This document shows, one piece after another, positions 50,760 to 53,331 of a DNA stretch of 64,000 nucleotides. A program made the position numbers and the translations under genes. Within the stretch, counting starts at the first letter, position 1. The number at the start of each line of letters is the position of its first letter. The notes under the pieces are model-generated. The model did not search any database. It had not been told where the DNA came from and was given only the letters and a program-made list of their open reading frames with translations. The DNA comes from Methanosphaera sp. Lineage in GTDB: Archaea; Methanobacteriota; Methanobacteria; Methanobacteriales; Methanobacteriaceae. Location: assembly GCF_022768985.1 (NCBI RefSeq), contig NZ_JALEKL010000001.1, forward strand, positions 1 through 64,000, read 5' to 3'.

Positions 50760-51452
50760 ATGTCAAAAAATATTTTAAAAGAAAATGTTGGAAAAAAAGC
50801 TGCAGATCTAATTAAAGATGGACAGATTGTAGGTCTTGGAACAGGATCAACAACACACTACTTTATTAGACATTTAGGTGAAAGAATTAAAAATGAAGAA
50901 TTAAATATTCTTGGTATTCCTACATCATATCAGTCATTAATTATTGCAAGAGAAGCAGGAATTAACACCACAACTCTTGATGAATATGATATTGATGTTG
51001 CAGTAGATGGTGCAGATGAAGTAGATGAAAATCTTAACTTAATTAAAGGTGGAGGAGCAGCACATACCCTAGAAAAACTCGTTGATAGTTCTGCTAAAAA
51101 GTTTATTGTAATTGTTGATGATAGTAAAATGGTTAAACAGTTAGGTGAATTCCCTGTACCTATTGAAATAATTCCTGAAGCACTTCGTATTGTAAAAGAA
51201 AGTCTTATTGATATGGGTGGAAAACCTGAACTTAGGATGGGAGTTCAAAAAGATGGTCCTGTAATAACAGATAATGGTAACTTTATTGTAGATACTAAAT
51301 TTGATTCTATACGTAATCCTCAAAAACTTGAAAAAGAATTAAATATTCTTCCTGGTGTTGTTGAAAATGGTATTTTCACAAATCTTGTAGATAAAGTTAT
51401 TATTGGTAGTCCATCTGGTATTAAAGAAATTAATAAAGATGATATTTTATAG
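50760..51452 (+). CDS. rpiA: Ribose-5-phosphate isomerase A
   Basis: RpiA interconverts ribose-5-phosphate and ribulose-5-phosphate for nucleotide and sugar synthesis. The loop [43 protein letters not shown] (catalytic Asp and Lys), [10 protein letters not shown] and the C-terminal PGVVENGIF match the family. At 230 residues it is complete. It precedes the CsoR-family gene by 37 bp on the same strand. Confidence 0.95.
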
Positions 51453-51489: not shown

Positions 51490-51762
51490 ATGAAGCAATG
51501 TATGGATTTGGACAATCTTCACAGACGTCTTAGAAAGATTGAAGGACAAGTTGCTGCTATTGATCGTATGATTGAAAAGGATGTTCCATGTGAGGATATT
51601 CTTATGCAGGTTAATGCTGCAAAATCAGCTCTTAATAAGGTTGGAAGTATTATTCTTGAAGGACATATGAATCATTGTGTTAAAGATGCAATTGATAAGG
51701 GTGATAGTTCTGAGGCTATTGAGGACTTATCTAAGATTATAGATTATTATTCAAGAATTTAA
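51490..51762 (+). CDS. CsoR/RcnR-family metal-sensing repressor
   Basis: An all-helical repressor of 90 residues (DUF156). The N-terminal NLHRRLRKIEGQVAAIDRMI motif is typical of the family, and the metal ligands line up as C34 (PCEDIL), H59 and C63 (GHMNHC), that is the Cys-His-Cys pattern of copper-sensing CsoR. FrmR has Glu and RcnR has His at the third place, so they are less likely, but nickel-sensing InrS shares the Cys-His-Cys set. In these proteins metal binding releases the operator. It follows rpiA with only 37 bp between them. The downstream region has four operator-like sites in front of microprotein genes. Confidence 0.9.
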   Translation: MKQCMDLDNLHRRLRKIEGQVAAIDRMIEKDVPCEDILMQVNAAKSALNKVGSIILEGHMNHCVKDAIDKGDSSEAIEDLSKIIDYYSRI

Positions 51763-51983
51763 TTATTAAATTATAATATTTTCCCCTCCCTTTTTTTGAT
51801 TTTTTTTATTGTTGTTTTTTTGTATTTTATTTCATTTTTCTTTATTTTTTAAATCTTCATATTTTTTGTATTTTTCTTAATTTTTTTTTATTAAATTTTT
51901 TTGTATAACTCTCCGATTTGCTTTATTTTCGGCGATTTGAGGGTCATTACCTTTATATAGTATAAGTGTTAAATTATTTATTA

Positions 51984-52003
51984 TACCTTAAGGGGTATAG
52001 GTA
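51984..52003. promoter_or_regulatory. CsoR-like operator site 1
   Basis: TACCTTAAGGGGTATAGGTA lies 25-44 bases downstream of the TATA box start, so it overlaps the expected transcription start. TACC and GGTA are its outer half-sites around a G4 tract, as in CsoR operators. Confidence 0.65.
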
Positions 52004-52131
52004 CAGATGTATCATTTAACATGACATGATACACATTAAAAAAAACTTGAAAGCAACCGTAGTCTCTGATAAAAAAGGCATTATGGGGATGTTATTTTTT
52101 GATGAGAATTTTTTTAATGAAAAATGAAATG

Positions 52132-52150
52132 TACCTATAGGGGTATAAGT
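52132..52150. promoter_or_regulatory. CsoR-like operator site 2
   Basis: TACCTATAGGGGTATAAGT differs from sites 1, 3 and 4 mainly in its right half. It lies 64 bases before the ATG of the first microprotein gene. Confidence 0.55.
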
Positions 52151-52214
52151 AAAATAAGACTTTAATCTGAGAAATTAAAGAAACTAAACATAAAATATAC
52201 ATAAGGTGATATAA

Positions 52215-52337
52215 ATGAATATAACAGGTAACATTAAAAATATATTAGGTAGTATCGTAATGCTTCCAATTGTTGCAATGGTAGGATTTTATATGTATGT
52301 ATATGAAAGACATCCAATTTATACACCAAAATGTTAA
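52215..52337 (+). CDS. Membrane microprotein, copy 1
   Basis: A 40-residue peptide beginning MNITGNIKNILGSIVMLP. A single hydrophobic span (residues 10-28) includes MLP in its middle, and the C-terminus FYMYVYERHPIYTPKC is shared with the two copies downstream. GGTGATATAA precedes the ATG. The conserved His, Met and Cys could bind a metal, but that is a guess. It is too short for standard gene finders and lies directly behind two CsoR-like operator sites. Confidence 0.72.
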   Translation: MNITGNIKNILGSIVMLPIVAMVGFYMYVYERHPIYTPKC

Positions 52338-52408
52338 ATTGGAATTCATCATATACTATTGTTAAATAAATAAAAAAATAGTTATAAAAAAAATAGTAAT
52401 GGCATAAT

Positions 52409-52455
52409 ACAACATTTAACTTACATATTCTCTAAGTTAGGGGTTGTCTTTTTTT
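52409..52455 (+). terminator. Hairpin and T-run after microprotein copy 1
   Basis: ACAAC-ATT-TAACTTA pairs with TAAGTTA-GGG-GTTGT around a 9-base loop, giving a long stem, followed by C and seven T (52449-52455). It is a terminator-like end located before the next operator. Confidence 0.6.
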
Positions 52456-52468
52456 ATTGAAAAGATAA

Positions 52469-52488
52469 TACCTAAGGGGGTATAGGTA
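52469..52488. promoter_or_regulatory. CsoR-like operator site 3
   Basis: TACCTAAGGGGGTATAGGTA, with a G5 tract and TACC/GGTA half-sites. It is identical to site 4 and lies 115 bases before the ATG of copy 2. The leader contains a CTATTT...AAATAG hairpin (52547-52570). Confidence 0.68.
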
Positions 52489-52603
52489 TTGTTTATGTTG
52501 TATCAAAATGTGTAAATAAAAATTAAAAAAATTAAAGAATACTTTTCTATTTTTCATAAATAGGAAATAGAATTTAAATCAAAAAAAAGTGTAGGTGATA
52601 TAA

Positions 52604-52738
52604 ATGAATAAAATAATAAAACAAACAGGAAAACTACTACTTAACATATGTATGCTTCCACTTATTATTTTAGGAGCATTTTATATGTATGTATATGAAA
52701 CACATCCAATTTATACGCCAAAATCATTGAAAAACTAA
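52604..52738 (+). CDS. Membrane microprotein, copy 2
   Basis: A 44-residue peptide starting MNKIIKQTGKLLLNICMLPL with a hydrophobic span at about residues 10-30 and the conserved ending FYMYVYETHPIYTPKSLKN. A Cys (C16) and Met lie inside the span. The ribosome-binding site GGTGATATAA precedes the ATG. The preceding region has operator site 3. The tiny gene at 52761 follows 22 bp later. Confidence 0.75.
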   Translation: MNKIIKQTGKLLLNICMLPLIILGAFYMYVYETHPIYTPKSLKN

Positions 52739-52760
52739 ATAAAAAAAGGGGGAAATTAAA

Positions 52761-52856
52761 ATGAACTTCATGTCAAAAATAATGAAGAGATTCAATGGTA
52801 TAAACTATGATTACATTATCTATTCACAAAAATATCTAAGATACTTTATGAATTAA
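52761..52856 (+). CDS. Tiny protein of 31 residues after microprotein copy 2
   Basis: The reading frame has GGGGGAAATTAAA before its ATG and codes for a basic, Tyr-rich peptide (MNFMSKIMKRFNG..., then DYIIYSQKYLRYF). It lacks a membrane span and is not related to the microproteins. It lies inside the same transcript as copy 2 and ends before the next hairpin. The function is unknown and it could be a spurious frame. Confidence 0.45.
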   Translation: MNFMSKIMKRFNGINYDYIIYSQKYLRYFMN

Positions 52857-52884
52857 AATAAAAAAAACTACAAGTGGGCATTAT

Positions 52885-52931
52885 ACAACATTTAACTTAT
52901 ATATTTTCTAAGTTAGGGTTGTCTTTTTTTT
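52885..52931 (+). terminator. Hairpin and T-run before microprotein copy 3
   Basis: The same stem as after copy 1 (ACAAC...TAACTTA pairs with TAAGTTA...GTTGT), followed by eight T (52924-52931). It would end the transcript of copy 2 and the 31-residue frame. Confidence 0.6.
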
Positions 52932-52944
52932 ATTGAAAAGGTAA

Positions 52945-52964
52945 TACCTAAGGGGGTATAGGTA
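52945..52964. promoter_or_regulatory. CsoR-like operator site 4
   Basis: TACCTAAGGGGGTATAGGTA, identical to site 3, 116 bases before the ATG of microprotein copy 3. Confidence 0.68.
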
Positions 52965-53080
52965 TTGTTTATGTTGTATCAAAATGTGTAAATAAAAATT
53001 AAAAAAAAAATAAATTTTACTTTTTCTATTTTTAATAAACAGAAAATAGAAATCAAATCAAAAATGTAAAGGTGGTAAAT

Positions 53081-53215
53081 ATGAATAAAATAATAAAACA
53101 AACAGGAAAACTACTACTTAACATATGTATGCTTCCACTTATTATTTTAGGAGCATTTTATATGTATGTATATGAAACACATCCAATTTATACGCCAAAA
53201 TCATTAAAAGCATAA
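53081..53215 (+). CDS. Membrane microprotein, copy 3
   Basis: A 44-residue peptide identical to copy 2 except for the last residue (ending SLKA in place of SLKN). It has the same span with an internal Cys and the FYMYVYETHPIYTPK ending. GGTGGTAAAT precedes the ATG. It is followed by a different tiny gene at 53239. Confidence 0.75.
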   Translation: MNKIIKQTGKLLLNICMLPLIILGAFYMYVYETHPIYTPKSLKA

Positions 53216-53238
53216 AATAATAAAAGGAGGAAGTTTAT

Positions 53239-53331
53239 ATGAATAGCATCAAAGAAAAAGCAGAAAAAGCATTAATGTATGCATGTGGAATATTACTTGT
53301 TGCAGCAATAGTAGTATCAGTAGTAATGTAA
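53239..53331 (+). CDS. Tiny membrane protein of 30 residues after microprotein copy 3
   Basis: GGAGGAAGTTTAT before the ATG is a strong ribosome-binding site. The peptide has a charged helix (MNSIKEKAEKAL) and a single hydrophobic span (MYACGILLVAAIVVSVVM) ending at the C-terminus. It has no match to the other microproteins. It may be a second membrane component of the same transcript. Confidence 0.6.
   Translation: MNSIKEKAEKALMYACGILLVAAIVVSVVM

Follow-up and report, generated by a model that had tools for sequence, protein, structure and literature searches.

A gene for a CsoR-family metal-sensing repressor in Methanosphaera sp. is followed by an array of three very small membrane protein genes, and the locus as a whole is best explained as a metal-responsive transcription unit (probability roughly 0.6) in which CsoR would control these genes through operator-like sites placed in front of them. 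Comparison of genomes leads to the prediction of a defined operator, a regulon, and a new, previously unnamed microprotein family with invariant residues. The array lies within the window, the whole 64,000-nt stretch of DNA that was analyzed. Within the genus it is one member of a larger regulon that elsewhere includes a pump; the original prediction, made from the DNA of the window, missed both this regulon and the restriction of the microprotein to the genus. The features of the locus are as follows.

50760..51452, + strand: rpiA-like gene, an open reading frame directly upstream of csoR
51490..51762, + strand: csoR, CsoR-family metal-sensing repressor, 90 aa, PF02583
51952..51959, + strand: TATA box, TTTATATA, starting 30 nt before operator 1
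51982..52003, + strand: operator 1, TATACCTTAAGGGGTATAGGTA, a pattern match
52130..52151, + strand: operator 2, TGTACCTATAGGGGTATAAGTA, ending 63 nt before microprotein 1
52215..52337, + strand: microprotein 1, 40 aa, single membrane span
52467..52488, + strand: operator 3, AATACCTAAGGGGGTATAGGTA, ending 115 nt before microprotein 2
52604..52738, + strand: microprotein 2, 44 aa, single membrane span
52761..52856, + strand: small open reading frame behind microprotein 2, 31 aa, with a ribosome site; coding status uncertain
52943..52964, + strand: operator 4, AATACCTAAGGGGGTATAGGTA, ending 116 nt before microprotein 3
53081..53215, + strand: microprotein 3, 44 aa, single membrane span, duplicate of microprotein 2
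53239..53331, + strand: small open reading frame behind microprotein 3, 30 aa, with an AAGGAGG ribosome site and one hydrophobic span; coding status uncertain

The repressor and its microprotein array

The csoR gene is present once in the window genome, as it is in each genome, and follows an open reading frame whose product resembles ribose-5-phosphate isomerase. This rpiA-csoR order is kept across Methanosphaera at the csoR loci compared. The csoR product had been proposed to be a CsoR-family sensor with Cys34, His59, and Cys63 as ligands, and this is borne out: PF02583 covers residues 8 to 85 (E = 4.1e-29; 101 bits against a cut-off of 22.8), and the three residues are all present, each position being conserved in 62 of 63 aligned relatives. 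An extra cysteine, Cys4, which is a fourth potential ligand, is conserved in 57 of the 63 sequences of this close subfamily. The closest solved structures are those of CsoR (4m1p and 4adz) and InrS (5fmn), and relatives with 85% to 96% identity come from assemblies named Methanosphaera or Methanobacteriaceae.

The peptides encoded downstream likewise have the properties first ascribed to them. Their open reading frames of 40 to 44 residues share the motif FYMYVYExHPIYTPK, in which x is R or T, and one hydrophobic span is predicted in each; for microprotein 2, AlphaFold returns a single helix spanning residues 3 to 33. All three are preceded by ribosome sites of the form GGTGA or GGTGG. Copies 2 and 3, together with their operator-like sites, stem from a recent duplication in tandem of the entire unit (identity in 275 of 304 aligned columns) and therefore do not count as independent evidence. 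The peptides were also thought to lie outside known families, and neither Pfam nor NCBIfam yields a significant match, the best being PF13131 (DUF3951) at E = 0.074, below the cut-off. The small open reading frame at 52761 to 52856 has no match in these collections, a search of the microprotein leaders against Rfam recognizes no riboswitch or known RNA, and no bacterial-type terminator is called at the array. By our own reading of the sequence, an AT-rich stem and a T-run precede sites 3 and 4.

The probable operator and its association with csoR

The four 22-bp operator-like sites match the pattern TATACCNNNNGGGGTATAGGTA with at most two mismatches; shuffled windows contain none, and 0 are expected by chance. 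These four are the only such sites in the 1.6-Mb window genome, and all fall within the array, which thus constitutes the whole regulon detectable there. Every one of them has the form TACCNNNNGGGGTA, with TAC/GTA inverted repeats flanking G-tracts and a half-site spacing of 8 bp. The expectation that such a site stands before each peptide is confirmed for all four sites, except that site 2 ends in TATAAGTA and not, as had been stated, in TATAGGTA. A TATA box at the expected distance is found at site 1 only, sites 2 to 4 being without a clear one.

Comparison across genomes makes it very probable that these sites are the operator of CsoR. With up to two mismatches allowed, the 20 Methanosphaera genomes contain 94 matches to the pattern, compared with 2 to its reverse. 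Outside the genus, the comparison covered 100 further genomes of the family; in those that have csoR, every site (46 of 46) falls no more than 270 bp from that gene, as a rule in the interval separating it from a P1B-ATPase gene. Sites are found in 37 of the 65 genomes having csoR versus 3 of the 35 lacking it (Fisher p = 1e-6), and the csoR-lacking genomes contain only three sites altogether. Methanobrevibacter-type genomes have the order csoR, site, P1B-ATPase, followed in some by a CopZ-like HMA protein, and in several unrelated bacteria with csoR-ATPase loci, whose CsoR is 53% to 66% identical, the same class of site adjoins csoR or the pump.

The shape and placement of the sites bear on the same question. 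Published CsoR type-2 operators are TAC...GTA pseudopalindromes with G-tracts and a spacing of 9 bp (PMC3902906), which the sites resemble. Within the genus, a TATA-like box occurs no more than 60 nt ahead of 79 of 92 sites, compared with 8.7% of random positions. Its most frequent starting point is 30 nt before the site, which puts the site where transcription is expected to begin, a position that suits a repressor. FeoA-domain and DnaJ-like genes, which are unusual targets for CsoR, also have sites in front of them, as might be seen if another regulator owned the operator and csoR lay nearby by accident; however, the invariable adjacency to csoR outside the genus, the near absence of sites from genomes without csoR, and their recurrence beside csoR in bacteria make such ownership scarcely plausible. 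The proposed layout of a CsoR-linked operator and microprotein is, on these comparative grounds, supported by the homologues of the peptide, their linkage to csoR, the sites upstream of them, and the same sites beside csoR elsewhere. Binding of CsoR to the operator, with derepression, is accordingly graded here as highly likely, again from comparison of genomes.

Distribution, regulon, and loss of the pump

A profile built from 16 microprotein sequences finds matches in 16 of 20 Methanosphaera genomes, a sample that includes the near-duplicates G009/G019 and G008/G018, and in 12 of the 13 genomes whose completeness is 90% or more. The exception among these 13 is G016, which has no sites either. 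Homologues had been anticipated across Methanobacteriales, an expectation that holds for the genus and not for the order: a profile search of 151 genomes across the order, outside the genus, recovers only fragments with stops (E about 0.007-0.008). These marginal fragments, together with weak matches to long frames that are taken as unrelated, were rejected as homologues beyond the genus. Descent from the N-terminus of a P-ATPase was likewise rejected, the profile matching no ATPase frame at E values up to 5.

In most Methanosphaera genomes that have it, the microprotein sits directly behind csoR, and the linkage noted in the window is thus upheld. Each copy has an operator-like site ahead of it, and the distance from the end of this site to the start codon is typically 28-116 nt. 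Residues Y27, Y31, P35, and Y37 are invariant, and F26 and E32 nearly so. Values of dN/dS are 0.11-0.45 in nine of ten pairs, the remaining within-array pair giving 0.84; from these ratios and the conservation it follows that the coding sequence is under selection and, as judged by substitution patterns, that the selection on the microprotein genes is purifying. The array itself seems to gain and lose units, since G001 carries a promoter and a perfect operator behind csoR with no open reading frame after them (L124:2849-2870), an orphaned regulatory site, and what look like degenerate extra copies remain in G002 and G017.

Beyond the array, regulon members were listed by the nearest open reading frame with a ribosome site, a procedure that is error-prone for very small genes. 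Sites precede the microprotein in 16 Methanosphaera genomes, stand-alone FeoA-domain proteins in 11, and a csoR-type P1B-ATPase with a CPC motif in 7, all of which also have the microprotein; G004 has the site, the microprotein, and the csoR-type pump in apparent operon order. A PacL-like gene followed by a P-ATPase with a YSC motif is directly observed behind the operator at two loci (L125 and L136), and the pair is inferred from spacing at four others (probably L104, L110, L117, and L151). This PacL-like protein matches DUF6110, with DUF1490 just below the cut-off. Sites additionally precede 30- to 34-residue NNIS-type peptides and a few DnaJ-like genes. From these related genomes, the CsoR sensor probably switches on the microprotein and many other very small proteins.

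Several further observations concern individual members. The FeoA loci carry one to three sites each (L083, L084, L091, L093, L097, and L102, and likewise L111, L118, L129, L135, and L141), and some have an additional nearby site of the form ACTATGGGGGGTATAGTAT. FeoAB iron import was rejected as a regulon member: FeoA stands alone, with no FeoB behind it in the nine loci examined. A second hydrophobic microprotein (EHFS or MNIFFKIGEVIFKIFAGFLILLALFIEHFS type) occurs under the same operator at L105, L109, L116, L129, and L135; its resemblance to the first is weak (E about 0.01-1), and the two are perhaps related. A 43-residue, soluble-looking family with the motif YTYIKPNxIYTTKK is also found there (L092, L103, L126, L138, and L139), and the one member searched against Pfam and NCBIfam has no match.

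The absence of a CopA- or CopZ-type target from the array, remarked on at the outset, extends to the genome, which lacks the csoR-type pump. No pump or chaperone in the window genome has the site, whereas in outgroups the pump carries it, and no such site lies upstream of the canonical copA of the window genome. Altogether, nine genomes, including the window genome and the closed genome G014, have the microprotein and lack the csoR-type pump. Where it occurs, the csoR-linked pump has CPC in TM6 and HNxGS in TM8, which is not the P1B-1 copper signature. The C-H-C triad of CsoR and the CopZ-like neighbor in relatives favor Cu(I), and Zn, Cd, Ni, or Co could serve instead because of the conserved Cys4 and the HNxGS in TM8; on these motifs, Cu(I) is by a small degree the more probable effector of CsoR.

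The canonical copA of the genus merits separate mention. In 16 genomes it is split in the same way at an A9 run between two HMA domains (for example, G000:C11 at about 22.6 kb, - strand, L200; also L203, L218, and L269-L281). A stop immediately behind the run (AAA AAA AAA CNN TRA) terminates HMA1, and HMA2 and the ATPase follow in the -1 frame; in two genomes, G014 (with A10) and G001, the gene is in frame. A shared downstream RNA structure was looked for at the A9 site and none was found. In E. coli, copA itself also yields a putative chaperone by -1 frameshifting (PMC5009743), and the A9 run is a candidate for similar conserved -1 recoding or for transcriptional slippage.

The csoR-pump pair appears ancestral, since other Methanobacteriaceae and bacteria have it as well. 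In Methanosphaera the pump is gone from the csoR locus, and the csoR-type pump is lost altogether in the window genome, G014, and others. Under the proposed history, an ancestral operon of csoR, operator, and P1B-ATPase would have become a scattered regulon rich in small proteins, the operator spreading to many small-protein genes and the microprotein taking the place of the pump behind csoR.

Proposed function and comparison with known systems

In the proposed mechanism, apo-CsoR would bind the operators on the transcription starts and block expression. A soft metal ion, for which Cu(I) is the default candidate, would then bind C34, H59, and C63, perhaps together with C4, whereupon the metal-bound CsoR would leave the DNA and the microprotein units would be expressed. 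The microprotein would enter the membrane as a single helix whose conserved tail, Y-x3-Y-E-x2-P-I-Y, lies at one face of it. There it would serve as a small effector in metal stress, and its most likely action is to bind a transporter or another membrane complex and modulate it. Conserved Cys and His residues are absent, so the microprotein itself is unlikely to carry metal; the lack of a conserved soft-metal ligand and its persistence in genomes without the csoR-type pump make it neither a classical metallochaperone nor an obligate subunit of that pump. Action on a transporter or complex is put forward tentatively.

More specific roles can be weighed against the same data. The microprotein could be a dedicated pump partner, a subunit or stabilizer of a P1B-ATPase as PacL is for mycobacterial Ctp pumps; the operator is common to microprotein and csoR-type pump in 7 genomes, the microprotein precedes the pump in apparent operon order in G004, and M. 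tuberculosis csoR-pacL3-ctpV has the same layout (PMC13043812). However, nine genomes do without the csoR-type pump, which rules out an obligate partnership with it, and the microprotein has no DUF1490 or DUF6110 match, GxxG motif, or long cytoplasmic domain, so a dedicated role of this kind is rather unlikely; the ubiquitous pumps of the CopA or ZntA type could nevertheless be its partners. By analogy with Methanosarcina mazei MtrI and MtrR, it might instead modulate an unrelated, for example energy-conserving, membrane complex during metal stress. Such modulation of the methanogen Mtr complex by small proteins under stress is documented (PMC12774963, PMC13370731), and independence from the csoR-type pump fits this role, to which we assign only a minor share of the probability. 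A membrane-active growth-arrest peptide of the TisB kind, with metal stress as the inducer in place of DNA damage, would account for the short hydrophobic span, the stress-type repressor, and the duplication in the array; yet the strongly conserved residues at the end of the span and in the tail, unlike those of generic pore formers, and the absence of a recognizable antitoxin-like RNA make this improbable.

The preferred reading remains that of a small membrane effector under CsoR control. The array and the regulon, as read from their sequences, point to a small-protein response to metal stress. A still bolder and more doubtful step is that CsoR, once tied to a single pump operon, has within one archaeal genus come to govern a regulon consisting largely of lineage-specific membrane microproteins that act as effectors of metal stress independently of the csoR-type pump. 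If true, this would mean that a metal regulator can take on very small membrane proteins as its principal targets. The function of the genus-specific microprotein can be tested in a gut archaeon, M. stadtmanae being a relative that is available in culture. A literature search found no paper on CsoR targets in methanogens.

Among known systems, M. mazei MtrI and MtrR offer the parallel of stress-linked small proteins on a methanogen membrane complex; they belong to the genus Methanosarcina and not Methanosphaera, and the likeness is one of proposed role (PMC12774963, PMC13370731). In csoR-pacL3-ctpV of M. tuberculosis, the csoR gene is followed by a gene for a small single-span membrane protein under its control (PMC13043812), a layout like that in the window; the Methanosphaera regulon has, in addition, a PacL-like gene of its own (DUF6110) that stands together with a P-ATPase gene. 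Unlike PacL, the microprotein is smaller and without a metal-binding tail, and the GxxG in the membrane span and the Glu/Ala-repeat cytoplasmic domain are absent from all three microproteins of the window. The bacterial csoR-copA/copZ systems share with Methanosphaera a PF02583 regulator with C-H-C ligands and a G-tract pseudopalindromic operator, and in related methanogens, too, a P1B-ATPase comes next, sometimes followed by a CopZ-like chaperone. In Methanosphaera, however, the TAC/GTA half-sites are 8 bp apart, compared with 9 in the published consensus, csoR is followed by a microprotein array and not by a pump, and the sites are distributed over many genes.
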